Virus record (IMG/VR): IMGVR_UViG_3300037258_000615
Location: 1-30,565 of that record
Length of the DNA: 30,565 nucleotides
DNA from: a virus
Direction: 5' to 3' (one strand)
A program made the position numbers and the translations under genes. Within the stretch, counting starts at the first letter, position 1. Every line of letters begins with the position of its first letter. Below are positions 16,866 to 29,129 of the stretch, piece after piece. The notes beneath the pieces were generated by a model. The model worked only from the letters and a program-made list of their open reading frames with translations, did not search any database and was not told the origin of the DNA.

Positions 16866-17317
16866 TCTGGCACTGGTTCCTCCACTTCACTGGCAGCGAC
16901 AATGTTTCCGGCCCGTGGTATGGCTTTTTCTCAGGTTTCGGCTCCGACCTTGGCGAGATCGTCCTTCTCGGCGCCCTCTGGTCGATCCTGCGGAAACACA
17001 ACTGCGCCGTCCATCACTGCTGGCGCGTCGGCCGCCACAAGGTGCCGGGCACCGAGCACATCTGCTGCCGGCGCCACGCACCAGGGGGCGCCCCCACCCA
17101 CGAAGACGTGATCGAGGCCCACGCCGCAGCACAGCGCGCCAGGCGGCCACGGCGGACCGATCCCCGGGCCACGGGCGAACGGCTCCAGTCCGCCGAGGCG
17201 TCAGACGCCGCCGCTGAGCAGGTCCACGCCGAGAACTCCGCAGCCGAGATCGCCGACGCCCAGCCGAAGACACGCCGCCCCCGCAAGCCAGCCACCCGGA
17301 AGGGGACGGCGAAATGA
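16862..17317 (+). CDS. Actinophage membrane protein with Cys/His-rich cytoplasmic segment
   Basis: 151 residues from a GTG in a GTGA overlap. The opening IWHWFLHFTGSDNVSGPWY, followed by GFGSDLGEIVLLGALW and RKHNCAVHHCWRVGRH, is a pattern I recognise from many actinobacterial phages, where the gene lies in the lysis region and is listed only as a membrane protein. One hydrophobic helix covers about 30-43. After it come Cys and His residues (C48, C53, H59, then HICCRRH near 66-72) that could bind a metal. The last ~75 residues are hydrophilic, Ala/Glu/Arg-rich and probably disordered. Function unknown. Confidence 0.7.
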   Translation: MIWHWFLHFTGSDNVSGPWYGFFSGFGSDLGEIVLLGALWSILRKHNCAVHHCWRVGRHKVPGTEHICCRRHAPGGAPTHEDVIEAHAAAQRARRPRRTDPRATGERLQSAEASDAAAEQVHAENSAAEIADAQPKTRRPRKPATRKGTAK

Positions 17318-17808
17318 CCGACTTCTTTGACAGTGCCCGCTGGGGCCTGATCCCGTCAGGTTCCGACGTCGTGCTCTACTGGGACGGAAAGTACGCCACG
17401 CCGCCAGCGCAGGCCACACGCTTCGGGAAGGTCCGCTGGAACACCGTCCTTGGCGGCAGTGCCGTAGCCGCGCACGCGGGGGCCTGCGACTACGAGCCCG
17501 GTAACGCGGTCTATGAGATCGCCGGGCGCCTGCGCTCCTGGGCGCTTGAGCGGCAGGCGATGAACAAGCGCAGCCGGGTCTACGTCGGCCGCAACCACAT
17601 CAGGCAGGCACACTCCCTCGTCGGTGACATTCCGGGGGTCGTGTACTGGGTGCCGACGCTTGACGGAAAGCGGTGGTCAGCAGCCGAGCTCATCGTCAGC
17701 ATCGCCGGGGCGGGCGTCGAACTCGCCGAGGGGAGACTCTGGGCCGTGCAGTTCGCCGGCGGCATGACGGCAAAGTGGGATGAGTCCATCCTGTTCGGGG
17801 ACTGGTGA
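17314..17808 (+). CDS. GH25-like candidate lysin domain protein
   Basis: 164 residues from ATG in an ATGA overlap. The order of motifs follows a degenerate GH25-like TIM barrel known in actinophages: SGSDVVLYWDGKYA at the start, RWNTVLGG, then AGACDYEPGNA with a D-x-E pair resembling the GH25 catalytic strand, followed by a helix ending ERQAMNKRSRVYVGR, then VYWVPTLDGK, LWAVQFAGG and a terminal DW. No signal peptide, wall-binding domain or amidase motif is visible. Since it sits between membrane proteins and a holin, it may be the endolysin, but a non-catalytic role cannot be excluded, as the protein is shorter than classical GH25 lysozymes (~200 residues). Confidence 0.6.
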   Translation: MTDFFDSARWGLIPSGSDVVLYWDGKYATPPAQATRFGKVRWNTVLGGSAVAAHAGACDYEPGNAVYEIAGRLRSWALERQAMNKRSRVYVGRNHIRQAHSLVGDIPGVVYWVPTLDGKRWSAAELIVSIAGAGVELAEGRLWAVQFAGGMTAKWDESILFGDW

Positions 17809-18068
17809 TCATGGCGCATGCCGGTCCCACACTGGACGCTGAGCGCACGTGGGTTCCCTCCCGCAAGCTCACCGCAGCGATCATCACTAACGCGCTCACG
17901 TGGCTGGTGGCGCTGGCTGTCACCAAGCTTGGGCTGCACGAGTCCGTGGCGGTCGCAGCCTGGGTCAGCACGGTCATTGGCATCGTGGCCGGCGCTGTGG
18001 CCGGATACCTGGTGAAGGAGATCCCGGTGCTTGAGAAGGACATCGAGGTGCCCAAGGCGCACCCTTAG
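17805..18068 (+). CDS. Two-TM holin
   Basis: 87 residues if started at the GTG of a GTGA overlap, or 85 from the ATG at 17811. After a short N-terminus with WVPSRKLTAA come two hydrophobic helices, about 26-45 (IITNALTWLVALAVTKLG) and 50-70 (AVAAWVSTVIGIVAGAVAGY), separated by a tight polar turn. The C-terminus (VKEIPVLEKDIEVPKAHP) is charged. Length and layout match small class II holins of actinophages (r1t-like group). It is the last gene of the lysis block and is followed by a strong terminator. It would form the membrane hole that releases the lysin. Confidence 0.75.
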   Translation: MIMAHAGPTLDAERTWVPSRKLTAAIITNALTWLVALAVTKLGLHESVAVAAWVSTVIGIVAGAVAGYLVKEIPVLEKDIEVPKAHP

Positions 18069-18084
18069 CCGCATAGAGCCGAGT

Positions 18085-18122
18085 CGGCCCGCTCCACCTC
18101 CGGGTGGGGCGGGCCGATTTTT
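18085..18122 (+). terminator. Strong intrinsic terminator ending the tail/lysis operon
   Basis: CGGCCCGCTCCACC (18085-18098) pairs with GGTGGGGCGGGCCG (18103-18116), a 14-bp stem with one G-T wobble and a TCCG loop, followed by ATTTTT. It lies 17 bases after the holin stop and reads in the + direction. There is no T run on the other side. Confidence 0.9.
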
Positions 18123-18133
18123 GGCGTTCCCGC

Positions 18134-18442
18134 TCAGGGCGCCATCGCCCGCACTCTGGCCTCGTAGGCGGCCCGGGTGTGCTCCTCGCATGAGTCCAGC
18201 GACGGGACGAAGGTGCCCGGATGGTGCTCGGCGTGAAGCACCTCAGCCTCGGCGCTGATCTCACCGAAGGTCTTGCCGTGCCGGGGCCAGAAGATATCGC
18301 CGACGAAGGCGCCTGCGTACCCGGCGTGGTCGCCCTCGTGGCCCTTGGCGTATTTGCACTGGACTCCGGTGTTCATGAGGCTGTGCGGCGCGCTGTAGCT
18401 CGTGGTCGCCGCACAGCGCTGCTCCGCCGTCATCTCGGTCAT
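18134..18442 (-). CDS. Small Cys/His-containing phage protein
   Basis: 102 residues from ATG, with AGAGGA about 8 bases upstream. Near residue 29 it has CKYAKGHEGDHAGY, the C-x4-GH-x2-x-H pattern seen in many short actinophage early proteins, where it probably binds zinc. Near the C-terminus there is a second Cys/His pair (DSCEEHT). It points toward the lysis operon from the other strand, ending 12 bases after the terminator tract, and diverges from the membrane gene at 18499. I do not know its function. Confidence 0.65.
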   Translation of the reverse strand: MTEMTAEQRCAATTSYSAPHSLMNTGVQCKYAKGHEGDHAGYAGAFVGDIFWPRHGKTFGEISAEAEVLHAEHHPGTFVPSLDSCEEHTRAAYEARVRAMAP

Positions 18443-18486
18443 GCGTGCATCCTCTCACTCGCCCGTGCCGGAGCCATTCCCGCAGC

Positions 18487-18492
18487 TAGAAT
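18487..18492 (+). promoter_or_regulatory. -10 box TAGAAT for leaderless gene 18499
   Basis: TAGAAT is followed by six bases and then the GTG start at 18499, so transcription would begin at or next to the start codon. No Shine-Dalgarno is visible and no clear -35 is seen. Leaderless genes are common in actinobacteria. Confidence 0.5.
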
Positions 18493-18498
18493 GGCCTT

Positions 18499-18879
18499 GT
18501 GCAGACCTTCTTCCGCTTCTGGATGCGCACTCAGAGGACGCGCGTCGCTGTGACCCTGGCACTCCTGTTCGCGGCCGGCGCGCTTACGATCTATACAGCC
18601 GTCGCGCGGCCTGTTTCCGCCGGCCTGCTCCTGTGGGTGTTCCTCTCGGTGATCTTCTCCACCGCATGCGCCATCTGGAGCATCCGCTACCTGCTGAACC
18701 CGCCGCGCGCCTCGCTGGCCAGGGCCGCAACCGACCGGCGCCTGGGTGCAGCGTGGAGAGCGCTGAGGGGTCACTCGGTGGCCTACCGCGTAGACACCAC
18801 CGGAGGCGGCCTGGTCATCAACGGAGGCACCCGCGCCCTCGTCGCTGACTGCACGTTCACGACGCCGCTGACGGACTGA
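18499..18879 (+). CDS. Two-TM membrane protein of accessory region
   Basis: 126 residues from GTG, apparently leaderless. Two hydrophobic helices lie at about 15-36 (VAVTLALLFAAGALTIYTAV) and 41-65 (AGLLLWVFLSVIFSTACAIWS). After them comes a basic helix (ARAATDRRLGAAWRALRG) and a small beta-rich domain (HSVAYRVDTTGGGLVI, then VADCTF). The helix plus GRP/GH-x-AYR step is also present in the membrane-anchored protein at 20745-21185, which suggests a shared domain. The gene is a single transcription unit between oppositely oriented genes. Functions such as superinfection exclusion or lysogen surface modification are possible, with no direct evidence. Confidence 0.6.
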   Translation: MQTFFRFWMRTQRTRVAVTLALLFAAGALTIYTAVARPVSAGLLLWVFLSVIFSTACAIWSIRYLLNPPRASLARAATDRRLGAAWRALRGHSVAYRVDTTGGGLVINGGTRALVADCTFTTPLTD

Positions 18880-18890
18880 CCGGAGAGCCC

Positions 18891-19070
18891 CTACATCCGC
18901 TCCGGGTCCAGCTTCGTCCACCGTCCCGTGACGGGATCCTTCCCCACGGTCGGCCTCCGGGGCTTCTCCTCAGCGCCGTCCGCGCCCTCGTCCGCCTGGA
19001 CGGCCAGCGCCTCGGCCTCGGCATAGGTCTCAGGCCCCCTGGAGCGCTTGGGCCTCAGCGAAAGCTTCAT
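18891..19070 (-). CDS. 59-residue charged small protein
   Basis: A short frame of 59 residues from ATG at 19070. It opens basic (MKLSLRPKRSRG), continues acidic and Ala-rich (AEAEALAVQADEGADGAEE), and ends with VGKDPVTGRWTKLDPERM. The GRW-T-KLDPER type ending is common in small phage proteins of this group. TACCCT lies 6 bases before the start, so it may be read as a leaderless message; no good Shine-Dalgarno is seen. It ends only 11 bases from the convergent gene 18499-18879. Function unknown. Confidence 0.5.
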   Translation of the reverse strand: MKLSLRPKRSRGPETYAEAEALAVQADEGADGAEEKPRRPTVGKDPVTGRWTKLDPERM

Positions 19071-19110
19071 GCGCTCAGGGTAAACCGGCCAGGGCCGGTG
19101 TTCGGGCAGG

Positions 19111-19224
19111 TCACCTCGGGTTCCGTGCCGTCATCCAGAACAGCAGCCCAGTGCAGATGACGAGCGTCACGCCCACGGCTGCCGGGATCAGCGCGAAGTA
19201 CAGGGCGAACTGGAGGCCGGTCAC
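19111..19224 (-). CDS. 37-residue single-pass membrane peptide
   Basis: A short frame of 37 residues whose GTG start overlaps the TGA of the secreted protein gene 19221-19652 as GTGA. One hydrophobic helix covers most of it (LQFALYFALIPAAVGVTLVI and then CTGLLFWM), followed by a short basic tail (TARNPR). The coupling to the upstream gene and a clean TM segment support a real gene. It could anchor or assist the exported protein encoded just before it; that is inference. Confidence 0.5.
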   Translation of the reverse strand: MTGLQFALYFALIPAAVGVTLVICTGLLFWMTARNPR

Positions 19225-19652
19225 GTCCGCTTCCTGTAGGTGACCTTCAGGGCGATGTACCCGCTGCGCTCATTGAAGTTGCTGTCAAAGCCCAGCGACG
19301 CGGTAGCGAACACGTAGCAGCTGCCCGGGTTGCGCATGGGCAGCTTCAGGTTCAGCCGGTAGGGCGCCTTCAGGGTCTTGTCGCCGCTGTTGCTCGAGGA
19401 CGCACCCGAGGCCGTGAAGCAGTCCGTGAGCCAGTTCAGTTCAACCGGCTGATCCGGGCTCGCGCTCACCCAGGCGTGGATGCTCGCCGGGCGGTACGCG
19501 GGGTTGGAGGGGTCGGTGCTGCACTCAGCCAGCTTGCCCGAAGCATGGCAGCGGCCCTCGTGGTAGACGGTGCTGCTCTCGGCGCCCGCAGGGGTGCTAA
19601 GCAGAAGGGTGGCCGCGGCAGGTATCAGGGCAGCGGCACGGATGATCTTCAC
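19221..19652 (-). CDS. Exported protein with signal peptide, 4 cysteines
   Basis: 143 residues. The GTG at 19652 is chosen because AAGGAGA lies 7 bases upstream and a textbook Sec signal follows (MKIIRAAALIPAAATLLLS, cleavage likely after TPAGA). The mature part of about 120 residues has four Cys (in GRCHASG, LAECST, TDCFTA and GSCYVF), which may form two disulfides, and a beta-rich pattern with NLKLPMRNPG and a final ALKVTYRKRT strand. I recognise no family. It lies downstream of another secreted protein gene, with hairpins between them. As phages rarely export proteins outside lysis, it is a candidate lysogenic-conversion or host-derived cargo gene. Confidence 0.7.
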   Translation of the reverse strand: MKIIRAAALIPAAATLLLSTPAGAESSTVYHEGRCHASGKLAECSTDPSNPAYRPASIHAWVSASPDQPVELNWLTDCFTASGASSSNSGDKTLKAPYRLNLKLPMRNPGSCYVFATASLGFDSNFNERSGYIALKVTYRKRT

Positions 19653-19682
19653 TCGGTTCTCCTTAAGTTCAGCAGACAGGGC

Positions 19683-19716
19683 GGAGCCCCCGGGGCCACA
19701 AATCCCCGAGGGCTCC
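19683..19716 (-). terminator. Strong GC hairpin in the leader of the exported protein gene
   Basis: GGAGCCC-C-CGGGG (19683-19695) and CCCCG-A-GGGCTCC (19704-19716) pair over 12 bases around one mismatch, with an 8-base loop. It lies about 30 bases before the GTG of 19221-19652 on the - strand, so it could be an attenuator or an mRNA-protecting hairpin. Confidence 0.45.
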
Positions 19717-19748
19717 AAGGGGCCGGGATCCATCACGACTCAGCCCCA

Positions 19749-19774
19749 CGGTGCCTCCCCCTAGGCAGGCACCG
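19749..19774 (-). terminator. Hairpin downstream of secreted protein gene 19786-20514
   Basis: CGGTGCCT (19749-19756) pairs with AGGCACCG (19767-19774) around a 10-base loop, starting 12 bases past the stop of the - strand gene. There is no T run, so if it stops transcription it does so in the U-less way described for actinobacteria. Confidence 0.45.
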
Positions 19775-19785
19775 GGTCTTGCGGT

Positions 19786-20514
19786 CTAGAACGGGCCGGG
19801 CTGGCCGACCGATTCCTGCGTGTCAATCCCGCCGCCGCCGTTGAACACCACGGTCGACCAGGTGGGGGCCTGCCAGGCCAAGGTGTTCTGGACGGTCAGG
19901 ACCAAAGGATTACTAAAGTTGTTGCTCCCGCCATTGATGATCCACACAGCGCCGGGGGCGGTGACATGACCGCCGGGCAGGTGGTTCGCGAGGATCTGCA
20001 CGGTGGAAGCGTTGTTACCGAGCGGCTCGAGTCGTGCCCGCCATCCAGACGGCGGGTTCAGGGTGCTGTTCCAGTCGCCGAGACCCATCGTCTCCGGGCC
20101 CCCATTGTTAGGGTTCTGGGCCAGCTGGAACGTCTCGTCGCCTGCGTAGCCGTTGGCGATCAGGCCATGGCACTGGTTCGCCGAGAAGATCGAGCCCGGG
20201 TACGGCGAGCCCGTGGTGGGGTCGCAGTACAGCGCGCCGACCGTACCTTGCAGCGTCGGGGACAGATCCTCGGCCGCTGAGGCGTTGCTGCCCTGGTTGA
20301 GCGCGAACGTGGTGTTGACGGCAGTCAGGCCGCTGTGGACCTTGAGGATCTCGTGACGGCCGGGCTGCAGGAAGTGGATGTCCGTGCAGGCTCCGCCGCA
20401 GGCGGTCGTCGCCGCCGGGCGCACAGGGGCGGCGCTCGCCGCTGTCGTGGCCGCCGTAGCCACGCCAGCCCCAAAGGCGAGCGTGGCGGCAGCCCCGTAG
20501 ATGAACTTGCGCAT
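19786..20514 (-). CDS. Secreted protein with Sec signal peptide
   Basis: 242 residues from ATG, with AAGGGGA about 9 bases upstream. The signal peptide is clear: a basic start (MRKF), a hydrophobic core (YGAAATLAFGAGVATAAT) and cleavage near ASAAP at about 29. The mature part has an early Cys pair (ACGGACTD), two further Cys (LYCDPTTG, NQCHGLI) and many Asn, Gly and Trp in a beta-rich pattern (GVAWIINGG-like strands, AWQAPTWSTVVFNGGG). This style is common among secreted actinobacterial proteins of unknown function. It has its own upstream region with a 16-bp perfect palindrome. It is probably host-type cargo expressed from the lysogen; function unknown. Confidence 0.72.
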   Translation of the reverse strand: MRKFIYGAAATLAFGAGVATAATTAASAAPVRPAATTACGGACTDIHFLQPGRHEILKVHSGLTAVNTTFALNQGSNASAAEDLSPTLQGTVGALYCDPTTGSPYPGSIFSANQCHGLIANGYAGDETFQLAQNPNNGGPETMGLGDWNSTLNPPSGWRARLEPLGNNASTVQILANHLPGGHVTAPGAVWIINGGSNNFSNPLVLTVQNTLAWQAPTWSTVVFNGGGGIDTQESVGQPGPF

Positions 20515-20559
20515 TCTTTGGTTCCCCTTTCAGGGAGTCAGGTACCTAATCCCGCCATC

Positions 20560-20575
20560 ACCCAGGGCCCTGGGT
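20560..20575. promoter_or_regulatory. Perfect 16-bp palindrome upstream of secreted protein gene
   Basis: ACCCAGGGCCCTGGGT reads the same on both strands. It sits 45-60 bases before the ATG of 19786-20514, in a 230-base gap without genes. It is a likely operator for a dimeric regulator. The same gap also contains a 10-bp palindrome, CGTACGTACG, at 20609-20618. Confidence 0.5.
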
Positions 20576-20744
20576 ACTAGCCGCGCTGGCGGTTGCGCTT
20601 GCTCTAGGCGTACGTACGACGTGCTACGTGCGCGGTTGGGTTACGGCACGTGGCCGTGGTGTGACCGTGTGTGCCGGTTGCCCCCGTCTGCACCCCTGAC
20701 CTGGGGGTTTGCGGGTGACCGGAAGCGGCATAACGGGCGTGGTC

Positions 20745-21185
20745 TCAACCGGGCTCATCCTCGTCAAGCCCGTCGCCGTGCAGCCCCTCGTCATCCTCGT
20801 CGTATGGATCGTCTGCCGTGACGTCAGGATCGGCGGTGAAGCGGATCCCCGCCGACGGGGCACCGACGAACATGGAGTCCCGGATGACTGTCCCCTGGCG
20901 GTCTGGCCGTACCGGGACGTCGGGCGTGATGCGGACGCAGTCATCCGGCGGCTGGCGCACCACGACCTCGCCGACGAAGTTGCGCTCCCACGGTGCCAGC
21001 TCTATCCCCGTGCCCCGCAGGTGCAGCCGGTAGGCGGTGGGGCGGCCGAGCAGAGCCGAGCGGGCGGCCTGGATGCGGGCGGAGCGCCGGAGCAGGACCG
21101 CCGCGGTAGCTGCGGCACCGAGGCTGGCGATGGCCCCTGCGGCGGCAGTGGCGATGCGGTCGTCTAGCTGGAAGGCGATCTTCAC
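20745..21185 (-). CDS. Membrane-anchored protein divergent from serine recombinase
   Basis: 146 residues from GTG at 21185, chosen because a TATACT box ends 7 bases before it, which implies a leaderless message; the longer open frame across the recombinase gene is antisense noise. One hydrophobic helix covers about 14-32 (ATAAAGAIASLGAAATAAV), then a basic helix (LLRRSARIQAARSALLGR), a beta domain (PTAYRLHLRGTGIEL) and a strongly acidic tail (DDPYDEDDEG). The helix-and-strand step matches 18499-18879. Its position back to back with the integrase is where phages often keep immunity or exclusion genes, but no repressor motif is seen. Confidence 0.6.
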   Translation of the reverse strand: MKIAFQLDDRIATAAAGAIASLGAAATAAVLLRRSARIQAARSALLGRPTAYRLHLRGTGIELAPWERNFVGEVVVRQPPDDCVRITPDVPVRPDRQGTVIRDSMFVGAPSAGIRFTADPDVTADDPYDEDDEGLHGDGLDEDEPG

Positions 21186-21192
21186 GGGGCTG

Positions 21193-21198
21193 AGTATA
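21193..21198 (-). promoter_or_regulatory. -10 box TATACT for leaderless gene 20745-21185
   Basis: On the - strand TATACT is followed by seven bases and the GTG start. The box abuts the left arm of the inverted repeat 21199-21246. No Shine-Dalgarno is present. Confidence 0.6.
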
Positions 21199-21246
21199 AC
21201 CAGGGTACAGATCCTATGAATCCGCCCAAGTCTCGCTAACCCTGGT
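21199..21246. repeat. Inverted repeat between divergent promoters, candidate attP or operator
   Basis: ACCAGGGT at 21199-21206 and ACCCTGGT at 21239-21246 are perfect 8-bp inverted arms, 40 bases centre to centre. Each arm lies immediately upstream of the -10 box of one divergent gene, sharing one base with the + strand box. A ~48-bp imperfect dyad directly upstream of a large serine integrase gene is also what attP sites of such integrases look like. Confidence 0.55.
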
Positions 21247-21251
21247 ATTAT
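21246..21251 (+). promoter_or_regulatory. -10 box TATTAT for the serine recombinase gene
   Basis: TATTAT is followed by six bases (CGGGCA) and the ATG at 21258, so the message is probably leaderless. The box begins with the last T of the right inverted-repeat arm. Confidence 0.6.
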
Positions 21252-21257
21252 CGGGCA

Positions 21258-22640
21258 ATGCCAGAACCCCCTGTGCTGGCGGGAATCTACTGCCGACTTT
21301 CGCTCGCCCAGTACGGCGACAGCACCAAGGTTGAGGACCAGGAGCGCATCTGCCGCGACCTCGCCAGGAGCCTCGGCTGGGAAGTCACCGCCGTCTACGC
21401 TGACAACAACCGGTCCGCCTGGCAGAAGAACCGCAAACGTCCCGCCTGGGACCGCATGCTCGCCGACGTCGGCGCCTGGAAAATCAACGCCATCATCGTC
21501 TACCACGGCGACCGGCTCGTGCGCCGGCCCGAAGACCTCACTGACCTGCTCCGCCTCGCCGACAACAAAGGCGTGAAGCTCGCCAGCCCCACCGGTACGC
21601 ATGACCTTGACAGCCAGCGGCTTGAGCTCTGGATCCGCGCGGCGTTCGCCGAAGAGGAATCCACCCGCACGAGCGAACGGAAGAAGAGCCAGTACGACCG
21701 CATGCGCCGCGCCGGCCTGGTCCGCACCGGAGGACGCGGCGGCAGGGCCTACGGCTTCGCCAGAGACGGCGTCACCCAGATGCCCGAAGAGGTGAAGGCG
21801 GTCCGCGAGATGGCTAGGCGCGTCCTCGACGGCGAGGGAACCGGGGCCATCGCCGCCAGCCTCAACGCCCGCGACCTCACCACCGTCACCGGGGGGCCGT
21901 GGTCCCACGCCACCATCCGCAAGATGCTCTGCCGCCCCCGGTACGCCGGCCTCATGCCCGACGGCGAGCACACAGCCGCCTGGGAGCCGGTGCTGGAGCG
22001 GGACACCTGGGAGACCGTGTGCGCCCTGCTGCACTCCCGCGGCGCCGGGTACGCCTACACCACCAACGCCCGGCGTTACCTGCTGACCGGGATCGCCCTG
22101 TGCGGCACCTGCGGCCACCCCCTGGCCATCCGGCACTCCACCCGCTCGGAGTCGCTGCGGGGCTATGGCTGCATCAACGGCGAGTGCCGGCGCAAGCTGC
22201 ACCGGTCCGTGCACTACCTCGACCTGGCCGTCACCGCATGGGTGCTGGAGCAGCTGTCCTCACCTGAGTTCGCCGAGACCGTCGCCAGAGTCCCGGAGCC
22301 TGTCGCCGCGGCGGAGATCGTGGCGCTCGAGAAACGCAAAGCCGAAGCCGAGGCCGCGCTGGACAGCCTCGCCGACCATCCGGGGCTGAGCGTGGAACGG
22401 GCCGCGCGGGCCATCGCGTCCTTCGACGCGAAGATCGCGGCGGTGCGGGAGCGGATCGCGGCGTCACCCGGTCGGCGGCTGCTGGCCCGGCACACGGGCA
22501 TCAGCGAGGAGGAGTGGGAACGGCTGCCGCTGTCCTCACGGCGGGCGCTGGTGTCGGCGGCGTGCCATGTGACCATCTGGCCGTCTCGCCGCGGGCCCGG
22601 GTTCGACCCGGACTCGGTCGACATCCGGCCGCGGGAATAG
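21258..22640 (+). CDS. Large serine recombinase (phage integrase)
   Basis: 460 residues from an ATG without Shine-Dalgarno. The resolvase-type catalytic domain covers about 1-150: IYCRLS gives R13 and the nucleophile S15, HGDRLVRR gives R86 and R89, and the long E helix starts at AEEESTRTSERKKSQYD. The recombinase domain follows (GRAYGF, TIRKMLCRPRYAGLM). A zinc ribbon uses C282, C285, C305 and C310 (LCGTCGH, GCINGEC). The C-terminal part contains a coiled coil (IVALEKRKAEAEAALDSL). It is somewhat shorter than many large serine integrases (450-600 residues) but has all domains. It would integrate the phage between attP and attB without host factors. The neighbouring dyad at 21199-21246 is a candidate attP. 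Confidence 0.93.
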   Translation: MPEPPVLAGIYCRLSLAQYGDSTKVEDQERICRDLARSLGWEVTAVYADNNRSAWQKNRKRPAWDRMLADVGAWKINAIIVYHGDRLVRRPEDLTDLLRLADNKGVKLASPTGTHDLDSQRLELWIRAAFAEEESTRTSERKKSQYDRMRRAGLVRTGGRGGRAYGFARDGVTQMPEEVKAVREMARRVLDGEGTGAIAASLNARDLTTVTGGPWSHATIRKMLCRPRYAGLMPDGEHTAAWEPVLERDTWETVCALLHSRGAGYAYTTNARRYLLTGIALCGTCGHPLAIRHSTRSESLRGYGCINGECRRKLHRSVHYLDLAVTAWVLEQLSSPEFAETVARVPEPVAAAEIVALEKRKAEAEAALDSLADHPGLSVERAARAIASFDAKIAAVRERIAASPGRRLLARHTGISEEEWERLPLSSRRALVSAACHVTIWPSRRGPGFDPDSVDIRPRE

Positions 22641-22655
22641 GCGTCCGGAGACGCC
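22640..22655 (+). terminator. Small hairpin after the serine recombinase stop
   Basis: GGCGTC-CGGA-GACGCC forms a 6-bp stem with a CGGA tetraloop, starting on the last base of the stop codon. There is no T run, so the termination role is uncertain. Confidence 0.35.
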
Positions 22656-22659
22656 AAAT

Positions 22660-22738
22660 AGTATCGGTTAGTCGGCGCGGCGCCCTCCGACCTGCTCCGG
22701 AGCGCTATAGAGTATCGGTAAGTAGACAAAGCGATACT
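22660..22738. repeat. AGTATCG repeats between the two recombinase genes
   Basis: AGTATCGGTTAGT (22660-22672) and AGTATCGGTAAGT (22711-22723) match at 12 of 13 positions, 51 bases apart. A third, inverted copy of the core, CGATACT, is at 22732-22738, so the last two form a dyad. A 10-bp palindrome, GCTCCGGAGC, lies at 22694-22703. The 111-base gap leads straight to the tyrosine recombinase start. These are candidate recombinase arm sites, an att core or operator sites. Confidence 0.6.
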
Positions 22739-22751
22739 CAAGGCGGTTCGC

Positions 22752-23357
22752 ATGGCCGATACGGGGCGCAAGCAGCCCGTGGAGATCCTGACCCGGTCTG
22801 AGGTCACCGCGCTGATGCGCCAGTGCTCGGTCCGGGCACCGACCGGGCTGCGGAACCGGGCACTCATCGCAGTTATGTACCGCGCCGGCCTTCGCCTCGA
22901 TGAAGCCCTTGCCCTGAAGCCGTCCGACATCGACCCGCAGCGGGGAACCATCCGGGTCCTCCACGGCAAGGGTGACAGGGATCGGACTGTCAGCCTCGAC
23001 GAGGGCGGCACGGCGATCGTGCAGCAGTGGATGATCCGGCGCTCGGCGCTGCGCCTCCGGAACGGCCTCCTGTTCTGCACCCTGGACGGCAACCCTGTGA
23101 AGGCGGTGTACGTCCGGAACCTGATGAAGCGGCTAGCGCGCAAGGCCGGGATAGAGAAGCGCGTTCACCCGCACGGCCTGCGCCACGCCCACGCCGCCGA
23201 ACTCGCGGTTGAGGGCTGGCCCATGAACCTGATTCAGCAGCAGCTTGGCCACGCCTCGCTGCTCACCACCGATGTGTACCTGCGCCACATCTCACCAGCC
23301 GAACTGATCGCGCTCGGCAAGTCACGCCAGTGGAATCTGGAGGAGTCAAGCGCATGA
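22752..23357 (+). CDS. Tyrosine recombinase, catalytic domain only
   Basis: 201 residues from ATG, with AAGGCGG about 7 bases upstream. All the catalytic residues of the XerC/D-like family are present: R48 (AGLRLDEAL), K73 (HGKGDRD), H141 and R144 (HPHGLRH), H167 (QQLGHASL) and Y176 (TDVYLRH). The first ~20 residues lead directly into the catalytic fold, so the N-terminal core-binding domain of about 80-100 residues is absent. An in-frame TAA at 22719-22721 rules out a longer start. It overlaps the next gene as ATGA. It may be a second integrase, an accessory resolvase or a catalytic remnant that still folds. No other gene nearby looks like an excisionase. Confidence 0.9.
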   Translation: MADTGRKQPVEILTRSEVTALMRQCSVRAPTGLRNRALIAVMYRAGLRLDEALALKPSDIDPQRGTIRVLHGKGDRDRTVSLDEGGTAIVQQWMIRRSALRLRNGLLFCTLDGNPVKAVYVRNLMKRLARKAGIEKRVHPHGLRHAHAAELAVEGWPMNLIQQQLGHASLLTTDVYLRHISPAELIALGKSRQWNLEESSA

Positions 23358-23572
23358 GATACAAGAACGGCAAGGAGGTCATCTCCGCCCCCGCGGCGGT
23401 ACAGATCGCGCGCTACTGCGTGGCCGTCTCCGCTGCATGCATTATCTTCACGCTCGCCGTGGCCGTGTTCGGCAAGACCACGCTCGGGGACTTCGCCGGG
23501 GCGATGACTCTGGGCGTCCTCGGCGTGGTCTTCAGTTCAATGTTCCTGCACACCTGGAAGAGGCAGATATGA
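23354..23572 (+). CDS. 72-residue two-TM protein coupled to tyrosine recombinase
   Basis: 72 residues from the ATG of an ATGA overlap with the recombinase stop; an upstream in-frame ATG inside the recombinase was rejected. After a short polar start (MRYKNGKEVIS) there are two hydrophobic helices at about 17-38 (IARYCVAVSAACIIFTLAVAV) and 44-66 (FAGAMTLGVLGVVFSSMFL), and the protein ends in a basic HTWKRQI. Both ends should face the cytoplasm. It overlaps the next gene as ATGA, so the recombinase and the following genes are co-translated. Function unknown. Confidence 0.6.
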   Translation: MRYKNGKEVISAPAAVQIARYCVAVSAACIIFTLAVAVFGKTTLGDFAGAMTLGVLGVVFSSMFLHTWKRQI

Positions 23573-23856
23573 GCATCGTCAGCGGTCAGGTAATGAGCGA
23601 TTCGTCGTCTGGCGGCAAGCTCGGCAACCACCACCGCTGGCACGTCGCACGCGGTGTGGTCAATCCTGACTGCCCCCTGTGCGGGGAGGGGGGCGGTTCG
23701 CCAGGTGACGGCATCGGAGGCGCCCTGGTTCTCGCTGAGAAAGAACTGCACTTGCTGCACGCGCAGTTGCGGGCAGCCCAGGGCCGGTACGACGAGATGC
23801 GGCAGATCTGTGACGGGCTTCGCCTGGCCATCAAGCGGTACGGCAGTGAAGATTGA
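23569..23856 (+). CDS. Zinc-knuckle plus coiled-coil small protein
   Basis: 95 residues from the ATG of an ATGA overlap. The first half is polar and has HHRWHVARG followed by NPDCPLCGEG, one CxxC pair with nearby His residues that could bind zinc. The second half is a predicted coiled coil (ALVLAEKELHLLHAQLRAAQ, then RYDEMRQICDGLRLAIKRYG). This pairing of a short zinc motif and a helix is common among small actinophage proteins. Co-translation with the tyrosine recombinase unit suggests expression with it. No specific function can be assigned. Confidence 0.6.
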   Translation: MSIVSGQVMSDSSSGGKLGNHHRWHVARGVVNPDCPLCGEGGGSPGDGIGGALVLAEKELHLLHAQLRAAQGRYDEMRQICDGLRLAIKRYGSED

Positions 23857-23926
23857 CAGCGGCGGGGATTCCAGCGCGAGTCGGAGATGAGCCGCGACGC
23901 CTTCCACGTCTACCGGGCCGCGTTCG

Positions 23927-24229
23927 GTGACCGTCATGACTTCCTCACGGAACCGGCGCCTGCGTGAGCGCCTGATGGCCGAGGATCCCCACTGCGCGAA
24001 CTGCGGCGCGGCGGTCGTCTACTTCCGGCCGGAGCCGCGCGAGCCCTTCCCTGACAACTTCGCCACACTGGAGCACGTCAACTCGCGTAACCAGTCGGTG
24101 CCCAGGCCCTCACCCGGCCGGATCGTGCTGTGGTGCAGGAAATGCAACCAGGGGCGCAGCGAACGGGAAGTCGCAGCCATGCCCCGCGAGGAACTATGGA
24201 ACCGGTCAGGGCGGCGACCCGCCTGCTGA
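23927..24229 (+). CDS. HNH-like zinc nuclease domain protein
   Basis: 100 residues from GTG at 23927, or 97 from ATG at 23936, which has GGTGA upstream. The order CANCGAAVVYF, then ATLEHVNSRNQ, then LWCRKCNQGRSEREV is that of small phage HNH endonucleases: a CxxC-CxxC zinc site framing an E/D-H step and a terminal N-x-x-R/K. The catalytic first His would be in LEHVNSR. In many phages such HNH proteins work with terminase near cos; here it lies after the recombinases, so that role is not supported by context. It could be a small homing-type or DNA-processing nuclease. Confidence 0.7.
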   Translation: MTVMTSSRNRRLRERLMAEDPHCANCGAAVVYFRPEPREPFPDNFATLEHVNSRNQSVPRPSPGRIVLWCRKCNQGRSEREVAAMPREELWNRSGRRPAC

Positions 24230-24246
24230 CAGCCTGATGTGGGAGA

Positions 24247-24537
24247 ATGGGCATCGTGGTCACTGTCTACATCTCGATCGGCAACAGCGACGACAAGCTC
24301 ACCCAGTTGCAGTGGGCCGGCTACTGCGCTGAGGTCCGGGACCGGTTCCAGGAGCACTCCGGGCAGATCTACGGCGAGTGGCATGCCCTGCCGAACTCGC
24401 CGTACCAGAATGCGTGCTTCGCCGCGCTGTTCGATGACGATGACGCGGCACGGCTGAAGCGGCAACTTGCCGGGATCCGGGAGCGCCGTGGCCAGGATGC
24501 GGTTGCCTGGGCAGTCGCCGAAACGGAAATGATCTAG
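24247..24537 (+). CDS. Unknown small acidic protein
   Basis: 96 residues from ATG at 24247. GTG at 24256 is the better start by Shine-Dalgarno, since GGGAG lies about 10 bases before it but touches the ATG. The sequence opens VTVYISIGNSDDKLTQLQWA, has GYCAEVRDRFQEHSG and FAALFDDDDAARLKRQLAG, and ends VAWAVAETEMI. It reads as a compact alpha/beta protein without Cys motifs or membrane segments. The start resembles actinobacterial and phage proteins of about 90 residues that I know only as hypothetical. It ends 8 bases from the stop of the convergent early operon. Confidence 0.65.
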   Translation: MGIVVTVYISIGNSDDKLTQLQWAGYCAEVRDRFQEHSGQIYGEWHALPNSPYQNACFAALFDDDDAARLKRQLAGIRERRGQDAVAWAVAETEMI

Positions 24538-24545
24538 GTGTCCGC

Positions 24546-24767
24546 CTAGTCCCACATCCTCGCCTTGACGTCCGGGTCGTGCCGCGGGTCAAACCACAGC
24601 ACCCCGCATCCCTCCGCCCGGCATTCCACAACGTGATGGCCGCCGTCGCGCGCTGTGGGGCAGGTGCAGGTCATCCAGCTCAGTTGCCAGGACCCGGGTT
24701 CGTAATAGTGCCCGTTCTCGCAGGCGCCGGGCATGTCACCGGAGGCGAAGACGAGCGGGCGGCTCAA
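24546..24767 (-). CDS. Small Cys/His-rich protein, last gene of early operon
   Basis: 73 residues from a TTG in a TTGA overlap with the upstream gene. It has five Cys and several His: ACENGHYYEPG, MTCTCPTARDGGHHVVECRAEGCG, spread so that one or two zinc sites are likely. Trp residues (WQLSWM, VLWFDPRHDP) fit a small beta-rich fold. It is the final gene of the leftward chain and ends next to the convergent 24247-24537. No family recognised. Confidence 0.6.
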   Translation of the reverse strand: MSRPLVFASGDMPGACENGHYYEPGSWQLSWMTCTCPTARDGGHHVVECRAEGCGVLWFDPRHDPDVKARMWD

Positions 24768-25012
24768 GGCATGGGCGTGAACGACACCGTGCCGCCGCCG
24801 TCAAGGTCGATCACGAACGGCTCGCCTCTGCGCAGTGCAGCGTCCGCAGACCGCACCGAGTGGGGAGTGCGGCGCCTGCGTTCCGAGCGCGTCACGCAGC
24901 TGCGGCCGGGAAGGGCCTCGCAGTACTGGCAGGCGCGGGCTTCGTCCAGGTGGAAGGCGAGCGTGAGCGTGGTGATCCCGAGGTCATGGTCATGGATCGC
25001 GGAGGCTGTCAT
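24764..25012 (-). CDS. Zinc-finger-like small actinophage protein
   Basis: 82 residues from the ATG of an ATGA overlap. It contains ARACQYCEALPGRSCVTRSER, a CxxC followed by a third Cys eight residues on and basic residues, then TPHSVRSADAALRRG. The CPxCxAxxGxxC...H..R pattern is typical of short actinophage early proteins that probably bind zinc and nucleic acid. The N-terminus (IHDHDLGITTLTLAF) is beta-like. It overlaps its downstream neighbour as TTGA. Confidence 0.6.
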   Translation of the reverse strand: MTASAIHDHDLGITTLTLAFHLDEARACQYCEALPGRSCVTRSERRRRTPHSVRSADAALRRGEPFVIDLDGGGTVSFTPMP

Positions 25013-25227
25013 GCGCGCCCCGTTGCACTAGCGCCTCCACCGCCGCAGCCCAGGGCGGCAGATCCGGGGCCTCCGGCCGCGCCATCGCTGCCGGTTCCGG
25101 TGCCGCCGCCTCCGCCGATGAAGGTCAGGCCGCCGGGAACGTAGTACACGCCAGGCGGGGGGTCTTCCCCCCTGCCAAGGAAGCTCTGGACGTAGGCGGT
25201 GTCGTCGCGCCGAGGCGGCTCGCTCAC
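25009..25227 (-). CDS. Glycine-rich small protein at start of a sub-operon
   Basis: 72 residues from GTG at 25227. The first part is polar (MSEPPRRDDTAYVQSFLGRG) and includes PPPGVYYVPGG; the second half is glycine-rich with GGGGGTGTGSDG and a single Cys, and probably disordered. It overlaps the next gene as ATGA, and upstream is a gene-poor region with strong hairpins, so it may be the first gene of its transcript. No close Shine-Dalgarno is clear. Function unknown. Confidence 0.5.
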   Translation of the reverse strand: MSEPPRRDDTAYVQSFLGRGEDPPPGVYYVPGGLTFIGGGGGTGTGSDGAAGGPGSAALGCGGGGASATGRA

Positions 25228-25484
25228 GGCTTCATTCTCTCACGGCCCACCGTCAGAACGGGGTGAGCTGGCCCCGCCCAGCTGCGGGTCGTGGTGAGCC
25301 GGGCGGGGCCCCGCATCCGGAGGTGCATTCGGACGCGGTCAACCCCCTCGCCAAGGTTAGCAGCGCACAGTGACAGCCGGGTTACGGAGCGCACCGGGGC
25401 AGCGCGGCTGTGCTGCCCCGGGCGAGATCGCTCCCTTGGGCCAGAGTGCTCCTCCCTCTTGATGCCTCTCCGTTCACCACTCAT
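25224..25484 (-). CDS. Doubtful ORF across the hairpin region
   Basis: An open frame of 86 codons from ATG at 25484 that ends in a GTGA overlap with the next gene. Against it: it runs through two perfect 10-bp hairpins, its product is rich in Arg, Pro and Ser without fold-like pattern (for example RSRPGQHSRAAPVRS), and its base use is unlike that of its neighbours. The overlap alone is weak support. I list it so that the stretch 25228-25536 is not left blank, but think it is more likely non-coding regulatory DNA. Confidence 0.2.
   Translation of the reverse strand: MSGERRGIKREEHSGPRERSRPGQHSRAAPVRSVTRLSLCAANLGEGVDRVRMHLRMRGPARLTTTRSWAGPAHPVLTVGRERMKP
25270..25310. repeat. Perfect 10-bp inverted repeat, long loop
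   Basis: GGCCCCGCCC at 25270-25279 pairs with GGGCGGGGCC at 25301-25310 across a 21-base loop. It lies 43 bases upstream of the GTG of 25009-25227. It may be a terminator without U tract or a leader structure. Confidence 0.5.
25394..25421. repeat. Perfect 10-bp hairpin, 8-base loop
   Basis: CCGGGGCAGC at 25394-25403 pairs with GCTGCCCCGG at 25412-25421. With the hairpin at 25270-25310 it makes the 309-base gap between 25227 and 25537 strongly structured. No T tract follows on either strand. Confidence 0.55.
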
Positions 25485-25536
25485 GGTGAAGGCTCAGCGA
25501 CAAGCAGCAACTAGCCGGGAGGTCACAGAAGGGTGG

Positions 25537-25731
25537 CTACCCGCTATCAGCCTTCGTGAGTTCCACGGACATCCCCGAGCCCTTGCACGGGATCGCGGGA
25601 CCCCAGTTGCTCTCCTTGGTGCCCACCAGCGCAAGCATGTGACTCCTCAGCACCAGTTTGCCGGCAGCGCCAGCCCGGCCTGAGATCCTCCGGCCGCATA
25701 CAGGGCATGTGGCGCGGGGCCGCGAGGTCAT
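25537..25731 (-). CDS. Small zinc-ribbon protein
   Basis: 64 residues from the ATG of an ATGA overlap with the upstream gene. The N-terminus has ATCPVCGRRISGRAG, one CxxC knuckle, followed by LVLRSHMLALVGTK with a His that could be a third ligand, and IPCKGSGMS with another Cys. This C-x2-C...H...C layout suits a single zinc site, likely for nucleic acid contact. It is the last gene before the structured gap, so the first early transcript may end behind it. No specific function known. Confidence 0.6.
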   Translation of the reverse strand: MTSRPRATCPVCGRRISGRAGAAGKLVLRSHMLALVGTKESNWGPAIPCKGSGMSVELTKADSG

Positions 25732-25928
25732 TTTCCGGCCTCAGGCGCGGGGCGCCCCACGACCCGCAGCCTGCGCTCCGGATCAAGCCCGAGAAGCCCA
25801 GCCGGCACGAGCCGCCAGTCGATCACGATGGTGCACACCCGGTAATCGCTGCCTGGATCGTGGCTGATGGTGACAGCCTCGTCGGGCAGTTCGTCTAGCA
25901 GCGCGTCCAGGCGCTCGCCCAGGTTCAC
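25728..25928 (-). CDS. 66-residue unknown early protein
   Basis: Start set to the GTG at 25928 because GGAGGGGAGAG lies 6 bases upstream and the upstream stop overlaps as GTGA; the longer frame has no coding character. The product opens with an acidic helix (LGERLDALLDELPDEAV), followed by strands (VTISHDPG, YRVCTIVIDW) and a basic end (ERRLRVVGRP). It reads as a small alpha/beta protein. It overlaps the next gene as ATGA. No family recognised. Confidence 0.6.
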   Translation of the reverse strand: MNLGERLDALLDELPDEAVTISHDPGSDYRVCTIVIDWRLVPAGLLGLDPERRLRVVGRPAPEAGK

Positions 25929-26128
25929 GGTGCGCTCTCCCCTCCCTGGTAAGAGAAGTCCCCCGCTGGTGCCTGGCAGCGATGGGACCTGACCGTCAAG
26001 CCGTCCTCGCTGACGCGGGTAAACATGACCCAACGTCCGCGGCCTGCACGGGGAGACCAGAGCCAGATGATCTCCGCTCCGCAGTGCAGGCAGGTCTCCG
26101 TGGTGGGGATGGGACCGGTCTCAGCCAC
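25925..26128 (-). CDS. 67-residue zinc-binding early protein
   Basis: Start set to the GTG at 26128, with GAGGGGGAG about 5 bases upstream. It contains ETCLHCGAEIIWLWSPRAG, a CxxC knuckle, followed by RGRWVMFTRVSEDG and VRSHRCQAPAG with a His and a Cys. This pattern of CxxC, aromatic strand and H-x-C is frequent in short actinophage proteins and fits one zinc site. It overlaps the upstream gene by 8 bases and the downstream gene as GTGA. A nucleic acid or protein adaptor role is inferred. Confidence 0.6.
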   Translation of the reverse strand: MAETGPIPTTETCLHCGAEIIWLWSPRAGRGRWVMFTRVSEDGLTVRSHRCQAPAGDFSYQGGESAP

Positions 26129-26375
26129 CGCCGCTCCCCCTCTTGCGGAGCAGCTCGGTGGTGATGGCCTCGCGGATGTCCGTGGCCAGCACGAGGCGCT
26201 TGTCCTGCGCCAGTTCCAGTACGGCTTCAACCGCGGCGAAGAGACGCGGGGCGGCAATCCTGACCGTGTGCACTTGCGCGGGCGTCAGCGGCTCGGCTGA
26301 GGCGATCAGGCGGACACGCTTGGCTTCCGAGAGGAACAGGTCCAGGCCGGCGGCTGCCGGGTCCGTGTCAGGCAT
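26121..26375 (-). CDS. 84-residue helical early protein
   Basis: Start set to ATG 26375 because of GGAAGGTGGG just upstream and the TAATG coupling with the preceding small gene. The protein is almost all helix: LDLFLSEAKRVRLIASAEPL, then TPAQVHTVRIAAPRLFAAVEAVLELA, and a C-terminal DIREAITTELLRKRG. There are no Cys or membrane segments. It may be a small dimer-forming or adaptor protein. No family recognised; the coding call rests on composition and coupling on both sides. Confidence 0.6.
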   Translation of the reverse strand: MPDTDPAAAGLDLFLSEAKRVRLIASAEPLTPAQVHTVRIAAPRLFAAVEAVLELAQDKRLVLATDIREAITTELLRKRGSGGG

Positions 26376-26518
26376 TACACCCACCTTCCGTTCTTGCATC
26401 CCGGGGAAGGGCAGGACCACCTGTCCTGGTCAGCAGCATCACTGGCGGACTGGTCGTAGGCCAGGACCAGGTTGTGGACGTCACAGCGCCAGAAGGGGTC
26501 GTCTTGCCAGGAGGTCAT
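26375..26518 (-). CDS. 47-residue Cys/His small protein
   Basis: A short frame between two well supported genes, coupled on both sides: its ATG overlaps the upstream stop as ATGA, and its stop overlaps the downstream start as TAATG. The product has FWRCDVHNLVLAYDQ and RWSCPSPGCKNGRWV, giving C-x2-H and C-x4-C, a likely zinc site in a very small protein. It fills a gap that would otherwise look empty. Function unknown. Confidence 0.6.
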   Translation of the reverse strand: MTSWQDDPFWRCDVHNLVLAYDQSASDAADQDRWSCPSPGCKNGRWV

Positions 26519-26772
26519 GGGGTGGGCTCCTCATCTGCGTCCTGCGCGTCAAAGATGCCCACTACATCCTTGACCTCGTTCAGCGCGGCGATGCGCCTCT
26601 CCAGTTCAACGGCGTCGTCGACGAGGTGGTAGTAGTAGGGGATCTCACCCTTGTCGAGCTGCCGCAGGATGTAGCCCGCGTGCTCCTGGATGCGCTCGGC
26701 GGACTGCCTAGCCTTAGCGGCGTGGCGCTCGCGGATGCTGTTCAGCGCCCGCTTGGTGTGTGTGTCTTGCAT
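26515..26772 (-). CDS. 85-residue helical early protein
   Basis: Starts at ATG 26772, with GGAGGG about 9 bases upstream. The product is charged and helical: TKRALNSIRERHAAKARQSA, then ERIQEHAGYILRQLDKGEIP, a YYYHL turn, and ELERRIAALNEVKDVVGIFD, ending acidic. Two long amphipathic helices suggest a coiled-coil dimer. There are no metal or catalytic motifs. It is coupled downstream by ATGA. Function unknown. Confidence 0.6.
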   Translation of the reverse strand: MQDTHTKRALNSIRERHAAKARQSAERIQEHAGYILRQLDKGEIPYYYHLVDDAVELERRIAALNEVKDVVGIFDAQDADEEPTP

Positions 26773-26777
26773 CGGTC

Positions 26778-27032
26778 TCAGCCCTCCCCGGTGTCGTAGC
26801 GGCGGACGGCGGTGAGGTGATCGTGCTCCTTGCGCAACTCCATCAGGGAGCCCTCCAGCCCGATCTCAAGCCAGCCAGGCGCAAGGGCGTTCGTGATCTC
26901 CCGCACGAGGTACAGCTGGCCGCCGGCTAGCACCAGATCGCCCTCACGGACGTCGGACCACGGCAGGATCATGTCGTGGACTGCGCTGGGCGGGCAGGTG
27001 CGCGTTTCGGTCTGGGCGTCGGTGGTGGTCAT
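26778..27032 (-). CDS. 84-residue beta-rich early protein
   Basis: Start set to ATG 27032 because GGAGG lies 7 bases upstream and the previous small gene overlaps as ATGA; the longer frame to 27242 covers that other gene. The product has a polar N-terminus (MTTTDAQTETRT) and then VREGDLVLAGGQLYLVREI, which looks like the start of an SH3-like or other small barrel, followed by GWLEIGLEGSLMELRKEHD and AVRRYDTGEG. This kind of GDxVxxxGxxxxV protein is frequent in phage early regions. Function unknown. Confidence 0.6.
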   Translation of the reverse strand: MTTTDAQTETRTCPPSAVHDMILPWSDVREGDLVLAGGQLYLVREITNALAPGWLEIGLEGSLMELRKEHDHLTAVRRYDTGEG

Positions 27033-27190
27033 CGGGAAGCCTCCTGCCGCTGCCTGAGTTCGGCGTGGAAGTTGTCGTGCGTGACCCGGCGGTGAAAGGG
27101 CACCAGCGCCCCGCATGCGTTGCAGCACAGGATGCCGGTGTCGATGCCGACCGTCATGAAGTCGGTGTAGGAAACCACTCCGTAGCTCAT
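27029..27190 (-). CDS. 53-residue zinc-finger-like protein
   Basis: A short frame from ATG 27190, overlapping the upstream stop as ATGA and the downstream start as ATGA. The product has GILCCNACGALVPFHRRVTH followed by DNFHAEL, a C-x2-C...H...H layout that could form a small C2H2-type zinc finger. This H-x4-H ending behind a CxxC is common among small actinophage proteins. The coupling on both sides makes it convincing. The exact role is unknown; nucleic acid binding is possible. Confidence 0.65.
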   Translation of the reverse strand: MSYGVVSYTDFMTVGIDTGILCCNACGALVPFHRRVTHDNFHAELRQRQEASR

Positions 27191-27438
27191 TGGTTGCCCC
27201 CCCTCTGCCAGCGGGCAAAGGCCGCGATCTCGTCCTCGTCAACGGGTCCGCCCTGCGACATGGCCTCCAGCAGGGCGGTCATGTCCGGCGCCTCGATGAT
27301 CCGCGTGCCGTCGTCGAGCACATGCAGGTGCAGGGTCACGCCCAGGACGCGCATCTCCCCCTGCCAGACGGAAACGCGGTCGGCTGTCTCGCTCATCGGT
27401 CCTCCGGGTTGTGCTTGAGGTAGAGGGGGGTCGGTCAT
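27187..27438 (-). CDS. 83-residue early protein
   Basis: Starts at ATG 27438 in an ATGA overlap, with AAGG 6 bases upstream. A second good start is ATG 27396, with GGAGG in front, giving 69 residues that open SETADRVSVWQGEMRVLGV. After it come beta strands (TLHLHVLDDGTRIIE) and a helix (DMTALLEAMSQGG), and the end is acidic then basic. It reads as a small alpha/beta protein. No motif or family recognised. It overlaps the downstream zinc protein as ATGA. Confidence 0.6.
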   Translation of the reverse strand: MTDPPLPQAQPGGPMSETADRVSVWQGEMRVLGVTLHLHVLDDGTRIIEAPDMTALLEAMSQGGPVDEDEIAAFARWQRGGNQ

Positions 27439-27923
27439 CGGTCGCCTTCTCGCAGATCTGCGAGTGCCCGCGCCACGCTCCCGTCCGCGATGCGCTTAAG
27501 CGTGAGGGCAACCGACTGAAGCAGCGCGCCGATGTACTTGCTGGTGGCTCCTGGCTCACGGGGGATAGCGACGAGAAGGGCGCCGAGGGTGTCCTGGTCC
27601 ATTCGCGCCCGCGCCATGACTACCTGACCGGCCCAGCGGGTCTCGGGATGCACCTCGTCAGCCGTCTCGACACCCGGTGCCTCATCGCTCGACCAGGCAA
27701 GGACTGCCACGCCACCCGCTTCTATGCCCGCCGTGGACGGATGCTGGGCGACGAGCCAGTCGCACCATGCGCAGATGGCGCCGGTCAGTCCCTCGCCGCC
27801 GAACTCGTCGCTGATGGCCTGCGTTGCCTTTGAGGCAGCTGGCCAGTCGTCGCGCATCGCATAGGTGAGTGCGGCTGCGGCAAGCCTGACGATGCGGTCG
27901 TCGGGGTTCGTGGCGTCGCTCAC
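27435..27923 (-). CDS. 162-residue helical early protein
   Basis: Start set to the GTG at 27923 because GGAGG lies 7 bases upstream and the previous stop overlaps as GTGA. The product is mainly helical: DRIVRLAAAALTYAMRDDW, AASKATQAISDEFGGEGL, AICAWCDWLVAQH with a CxxC, and a long C-terminal helix (YIGALLQSVALTLKRIADG). It is one of the largest proteins of the early chain. The pattern resembles actinophage and Streptomyces proteins known to me only as hypothetical. Function unknown. Confidence 0.65.
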   Translation of the reverse strand: MSDATNPDDRIVRLAAAALTYAMRDDWPAASKATQAISDEFGGEGLTGAICAWCDWLVAQHPSTAGIEAGGVAVLAWSSDEAPGVETADEVHPETRWAGQVVMARARMDQDTLGALLVAIPREPGATSKYIGALLQSVALTLKRIADGSVARALADLREGDR

Positions 27924-28285: not shown

Positions 28286-28309
28286 CGCTTACTCCTTACT
28301 GCATGTCTC

Positions 28310-28323
28310 TGTGTCTAGACACA
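28310..28323. promoter_or_regulatory. Operator palindrome at the early (-) promoter
   Basis: TGTGTCTAGACACA is a perfect 14-bp palindrome, directly downstream of the -10 box of the - strand promoter (shared edge at 28323) and covering its likely transcription start. It shares TGTCTAGACA with 28371-28380. Confidence 0.75.
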
Positions 28324-29124: not shown

Positions 29125-29129
29125 CACGC

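Follow-up and report, generated by a model that had tools for sequence, protein, structure and literature searches.

The window analysed here, a 30,565-bp IMG/VR virus record with a G+C content of 68.7%, carries two genes for site-specific recombinases side by side: a large serine integrase (21258-22640) and a short tyrosine recombinase (22752-23357), both intact, both on the + strand and separated by 111 bp (22641-22751). The ordered pair is more than a chance arrangement, because the same order recurs in other records. The explanation ranked first, held tentatively at just short of an even chance, is that these are two modules, in which the serine integrase would provide integration and excision of the prophage and the short enzyme would form a single-site resolution system resembling Cre/lox or XerS/difSL. 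Second comes a role of the short enzyme as another integrase, which is possible though rather unlikely; third, and less probable again, the repeats between the two genes are an operator.

The window looks like a fragment, since its first gene is cut. Its left part holds tape-measure and tail-spike genes; the tail spike at 12491-14812 has a rhamnogalacturonase/pectate-lyase-like domain (PF12708). Megablast of positions 15000-30565 against phages returned no match. An initial annotation had described a complete serine recombinase and, 111 bp apart from it on one strand, a tyrosine recombinase whose active site is complete, and coordinates, profiles and catalytic residues all agree with this description. 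The comparison of codon use that it had proposed gives GC3 values of 0.90 for the serine gene and 0.85 for the tyrosine gene, both in line with the window. The features of the locus are as follows.

21194..21251, no strand assigned: candidate attP of the serine integrase; 28-bp half-sites, central dinucleotide CC at 21222-21223, outer arms ACCAGGGT/ACCCTGGT
21258..22640, + strand: large serine recombinase (serine integrase); ATG start, 460 aa; Pfam profiles, relatives at 44 IMG/VR loci
22660..22671, + strand: distal half-site AGTATCGGTTAG; repeats the proximal half-site in direct orientation, 51 bp upstream of it
22709..22740, no strand assigned: dif/lox-like core, read as 13-6-13, AGAGTATCGGTAA-GTAGAC-AAAGCGATACTCA; perfect 8-bp arms at 22710-22717 and 22732-22739
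22752..23357, + strand: short tyrosine recombinase (P0002); ATG start, 201 aa, catalytic domain only, all six catalytic residues
23354..23572, + strand: small protein of 72 aa with a hydrophobic stretch (read by eye); its ATG overlaps the stop codon of the tyrosine recombinase (ATGA)

Because of this overlap of start and stop, the 72-aa protein is probably co-translated with the tyrosine recombinase; a longer frame around it, 23330-23572, has no family match.

The serine integrase contains a catalytic resolvase domain (Resolvase, PF00239, 82.3 bits) with its serine, S15, which is invariant in an alignment of 18 sequences, and a recombinase domain (PF07508, 53.5 bits). The third feature of large serine integrases, the zinc ribbon (Zn_ribbon_recom, PF13408), scores 23.7 bits, just below the cut-off of 25.3. 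Relatives of 35-59% identity were found at the 44 IMG/VR loci; single-protein IMG/VR scans for P0001 and P0002 had given one relative each, the families being reached by larger alignments, and a genome scan gave only two, distant serine recombinases, which offered no host or prophage junction to read. Just 5' of int, many of these relatives carry a palindrome of 28-2-28 form: in 20 of 39 loci, the 150 bp before the gene contain one with at least 17 of 28 positions paired, compared with 89 of 699 control stretches, a count that includes the window, itself below the threshold of 17/28. According to a weight matrix from 17 relatives, 21194-21251 ranks 4th of 30507 window positions, with a weak palindrome of its own, and is the candidate attP of the serine integrase. 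The repeats in the gap between the genes were also considered for this role and rejected, as they rank 209 by the same matrix. Several of the records with serine relatives, seemingly isolate genomes by their numbers, start within about 35 bp of the int match (record ends are approximate), as would be expected if a prophage end were located there.

In the tyrosine recombinase, the Phage_integrase domain (PF00589; profile positions 2-168 of 172, 133.2 bits) spans residues 12-179 of 201, preceded by only about 11 residues, and R48, K73, H141, R144, H167 and Y176 align with XerA, XerH and XerD. Profile search detected neither a core-binding nor an arm-binding domain in the 201 aa. An AlphaFold2 model from 32 family members has a mean pLDDT of 88.4, its ordered part being the catalytic domain; in a fold comparison, XerH and XerA were the best solved folds, and Cre complexes were also among the matches. 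Simple tyrosine recombinases (the Xer group) are described as usually possessing both a core-binding and a catalytic domain (PMC8138268), and because the 201-aa enzyme lacks the former it is not filed as Xer. Cultured phages and plasmids searched with P0002 contained no place of 60% identity or more, and among the matches listed none exceeded 41.5%. The Salinibacter ruber plasmids pSR118 and pSR35 (L035, L036) encode 191-aa, catalytic-domain-sized tyrosine recombinases with about 38% identity to P0002.

Directly 5' of the tyrosine gene, the gap contains AGTATCGGTWAG twice in direct orientation, 51 bp apart, together with an inverted third copy at two mismatches; a search of the window for further matches at up to two mismatches gave none beyond these three. 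Three matches also occurred in 5 of 100 shuffles, a control in which clustering was not part of the test. The proximal and the inverted copy form an inverted repeat, GAGTATCG-N14-CGATACTC (22710-22739), and the core at 22709-22740, present as a single copy in the window, ends 11 bp before the start codon. One triple site at spacing 51 scores at least 25 in the window, against 0.017 expected per random sequence, and it is located in the gap; across spacings 30-90, two other places in the window reach this threshold. The best 13-bp arms of the window's core match at 10 of 13 positions, a value equalled by 18% of control stretches.

In L044, the record with the closest serine relative, the gap again contains two direct copies spaced at 51 bp, with an inverted repeat where the proximal one lies; the sequence differs from that of the window, and several other relatives likewise combine this layout with another sequence. 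In some relatives the proximal repeat is more obvious, and two cores are perfect 13-6-13 palindromes, namely AGAGTGTCGAATC-gtcagg-GATTCGACACTCT in L114 and ATGGTACCGCTTT-cattca-AAAGCGGTACCAT in L132. Inverted repeats and three-half-site arrangements were tested in 44 upstream regions, cleared of near-identical duplicates and with start codons hand-picked from open frames. For distal, proximal and inverted copies at spacing 51, at least 22 of 27 positions match in six regions (window, L108, L109, L114, L120, L133), and 0 of 34-39 control stretches per locus attain such scores; spacings of 50 and 40 give 2/44 each, and all others 0 or 1. The remaining 38 of the 44 regions fail this strict test. 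The 51-bp spacing was first noticed in the window and L044, and five of the six passing regions are among the other 42. Taken alone, the inverted repeat is unusual (at most 5% of controls) in 6/44 regions, the window not being one of them. L044 and L096 have most of the site sequence in common; since L096 keeps the site with its serine recombinase about 2 kb away and divergent rather than directly adjacent, the site is tied to the tyrosine gene.

That the same gap layout exists in another phage (L044) also bears on the suggestion, made in the initial annotation, of a phage-within-phage boundary between the two genes: no element ends were found between them, and the suggestion is not upheld.

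Under a purely regulatory interpretation, a repressor, or the recombinase repressing itself, would bind the three half-sites at the promoter and control expression of the tyrosine gene and of its operon. Copies of the same sense at a distance of 51 bp would be in helical phase, the inverted copy lies just before the start codon, and beside the proximal copy TATAGAGT looks, by eye, like a −10 element. Palindromes of up to 13-6-13 with a 6-bp spacer, however, fit a recombinase core; the catalytic residues, needless for a pure regulator, are kept; and the site occurs once per record, unlike many phage operators. An operator and nothing else is accordingly considered improbable.

The single occurrence of the core (once per record in all 11 records read nearly whole, of which G019, G046 and G060 miss 0.4-1.3 kb at one end) also counts against a FimB- or Rin-type enzyme, be it a DNA invertase or the recombinase of a shufflon. 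The enzyme does have the catalytic-domain-only size of FimB/FimE-type proteins, whose models are about 200 aa long, and it matches the tyrosine-type DNA invertase model NF007371 at 63.8 bits. This score is far under the cut-off of 222, and FimB/FimE-type enzymes and Rin invert segments between two or more sites, whereas the window has one. An invertible segment at the locus was looked for and rejected, as a search of the window revealed no convincing long inverted repeats around it. This explanation is given very little credence. Rin itself is described as a Bifidobacterium phage tyrosine recombinase separate from the integrase, and in the available account it has core-binding and catalytic domains, compared with the catalytic domain only in the window's enzyme (PMC6109161).

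Short relatives with 38-63% identity were found, in two rounds of alignment scans, in at least 48 IMG/VR records (L044 included), and the window makes 49. All 48, which are metagenome contigs by record number, come from the best 80 of 145 candidates; 32 rows that were distant (26-35%) or partial (L147-L178) were left out, and near-identical sets with zero-length branches in the tree (L110/L111/L112, L118/L119, L121/L123, L138/L139) are contained in the count. The catalytic R, K, H, R and H are invariant in 49/49 records and the tyrosine is present in 48/49. A few members have longer open frames upstream of the match, of up to about 190 codons, and not every member is proven to be as short as that of the window. 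Whole-record searches found large serine recombinases in 15/49 records and further tyrosine recombinase domains in a minority. Some other integrase-type domain is present in 23/49 records and lies within 2 kb of the short recombinase in 14 of these 23, whereas 2000 random placements average 3.9 and never exceed 11. Nine of the 14 nearby integrases are upstream and on the same strand: five are serine integrases (window, G019, G092, G061, G073) and four full-length tyrosine integrases (G051, G052, G080, G081).

Seen from the serine integrase, the association is looser. In a first survey of 18 records with relatives of this gene, a tyrosine recombinase was present in one, about 31 kb off, and the absence of adjacent neighbours raised the suspicion that the tyrosine gene had been inserted in a single case; this idea was dropped on the L044 tandem. 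L044 (G019), with the serine integrase closest to that of the window (59%), has a short tyrosine recombinase 47-48% identical to P0002 directly downstream on the same strand, after a gap of 109 bp, and so the check for the same pair in related phages, advised by the initial annotation, gave a positive answer. A larger scan detected PF00589 matches in 3/44 records with serine integrase relatives; the match in G002 is unlinked to the serine integrase, and G041 has two, in frames of 433 and 848 aa. An adjacent short recombinase was not seen in 43 of the 44 records, some of which are cut nearby (L084 is cut inside the serine gene and carries no information on its neighbour); the serine integrase, therefore, does not need one.

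Ten records have a serine recombinase nearby, and across these the identities of the serine enzymes do not correlate with those of the tyrosine enzymes (r = 0.00). Within the clade of L044, L146, L115, L127, L120 and L096, the tyrosine enzymes are 59-73% identical and the serine enzymes 19-39%, and the tree places the short enzyme of the window with L091, L105, L106 and L107; two of these four, L105 and L106, adjoin tyrosine integrases. As the lack of correlation suggests, the short gene would seem to be kept while the integrase beside it changes. The initial annotation had raised the possibility that the integrase was swapped recently and that the old one has yet to disappear. An exchange of the integrases next to the short gene does seem to have taken place, yet the short recombinase itself lacks the look of a dying integrase: its active site is conserved throughout the family, and it is found beside serine and tyrosine integrases alike. 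In G075, a fragmentary serine recombinase frame of 100 aa (39655-39804) lies 189 bp from an intact short recombinase (L129). This adjacency could be counted in favour of a leftover enzyme on its way out; the broken gene, however, is the serine one, and here the integrase seems to decay first. That the short recombinase is such a leftover is thus most improbable, and the pair is neither unique nor a relic. Among the reasons offered at the outset, the best fit is a division of labour, for example between integration and the resolution of dimers, the genes being intact, the pair recurrent and each gene having a candidate site directly upstream.

In the preferred scheme of two modules, the serine integrase, with the candidate attP 5' of its own gene, would integrate and excise the prophage, and the short tyrosine recombinase, with the site directly 5' of its own gene, would make up a single-site module. 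The short enzyme would act on the gap site in its 13-6-13 reading, presumably in a resolution role. Two copies of the 32-bp core would be brought into synapsis by four protomers, which would cut at the edges of the 6-bp spacer, and strand exchange would proceed via a Holliday junction, as in XerS/difSL, XerH/difH or Cre/lox. The lone half-site located 51 bp upstream, a distance of about five helical turns, may bind one further protomer, which would tune the reaction or repress the gene. Given a single core per genome, the simplest use would be recombination between two phage copies, by which dimers of the circular genome or tandem prophages would be resolved to monomers.

Several known systems resemble this arrangement in part. 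In Cre/loxP of P1, a phage recombinase gene lies near one 13-8-13 site, and the system resolves dimers; Cre itself includes a core-binding domain, and the prophage that it serves is a plasmid. The window's system differs in having an integrase next door, and the partition ATPase ParA (PF13614) was found in 0/49 short-recombinase records, all of them fragments or of unproven completeness; a plasmid prophage, the state with the greatest need of dimer resolution, is for this reason without support. XerS/difSL is described as one module of gene and site (PMC5357621), and in XerS/difSL and XerH/difH likewise one tyrosine recombinase gene directly adjoins a dif-like site (PMC5357621, PMC2731167), the anatomy also encountered in the window. 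XerS and XerH are chromosomal enzymes of 354-362 aa, whereas the window's enzyme has 201 aa, lacks a core-binding domain, is phage-borne and stands beside an integrase; the spacer is 11 bp in difSL and 6 bp as read here. Among phages, Tyrovirus gp50 is reported as a tyrosine recombinase whose putative attP consists of two 11-bp repeats separated by 6 bp, in phages that have several recombinases each (PMC9703825), and it shares with the window's enzyme a dif-like site beside the gene. Its description differs in giving three tyrosine recombinases, an N-terminal integrase domain in gp50, a site downstream of the gene and a location in the structural module, and the available part of the text mentions no serine integrase (PMC9703825), which the window does have. 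Gordonia phage Culver is an actinophage reported to have two integrase genes (PMC10868165); both are tyrosine integrases, genes 60 and 85, and lie apart, in contrast to the adjoining serine and tyrosine genes of the window.

This picture is complicated by 26/49 records, seven of them of at least 40 kb, in which no other integrase domain was seen and the short enzyme could itself be the integrase. Extended to the window, this would mean two integration systems, with the core and the distal half-site constituting an attP like those of arm-less simple phage integrases. The attP of Brujita has a 6-base overlap and an extra half-site. The Brujita integrase, from the simple-recombinase subgroup and likewise arm-less, is reported to insert a mycobacteriophage genome (PMC8138268), and a site beside the gene is the usual place for attP. 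The Brujita enzyme is, however, the integrase of its phage, whereas the window has a serine integrase as well and a short enzyme devoid of a core-binding domain. In nine records another integrase domain is encoded immediately upstream, on the same strand; the best cores, as perfect 13-6-13 palindromes, are closer to loxP than to a site in common with a bacterial gene; cores vary between phages; and ARAGORN found no tRNA in the window. A second integrase is hence judged clearly less probable than a resolution module.

In the open-access literature, no description was found of an integrase-linked short recombinase with its own site. It is tentatively suggested, with slightly less confidence than the resolution role in the window, that a widespread and undescribed family of catalytic-domain-only phage tyrosine recombinases, many with a three-half-site element, forms a portable module that temperate phages may retain next to any integrase, serine or tyrosine, and that adds a second recombination step to lysogeny, multimer resolution, independent of the integrase chemistry. 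Dozens of uncultured viruses have this kind of extra enzyme, in some cases next to quite different integrases, which would point to a helper module, so far overlooked, that handles the viral DNA inside the host. If this is true, integrative phages, and not plasmid prophages alone, carry a dedicated second site-specific recombinase, which persists while integrases of different chemistry are swapped beside it. As a tool of the lox type, a tyrosine recombinase active on a 32-bp site without a core-binding domain would be unusually compact, and with so many natural pairs of enzyme and site it would become easier to deduce site specificity from sequence.

Further features were noted to the right of the pair. 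A 26-bp unit occurs as two imperfect tandem copies at 25355-25403. The protein encoded at 27920-28285 (− strand) is 61% identical over 118 aa to one in L019 (3070-3405); recombinases and one 19-residue match aside, this is the only other gene that the window has in common with the serine-integrase relatives. At 28310-28571, palindromes around TCTAGACA (tgtgtctagacacacg, ttgtctagacacc), recognised by eye, lie upstream of a small + strand gene amid − strand genes, which looks like that of an autoregulated small DNA-binding protein. A GIY-YIG-like motif, also read by eye, is present in predicted proteins at 28564-29124 of the window and, close to the serine integrase, in L044 (7152-8567) and L003 (8148-8999).
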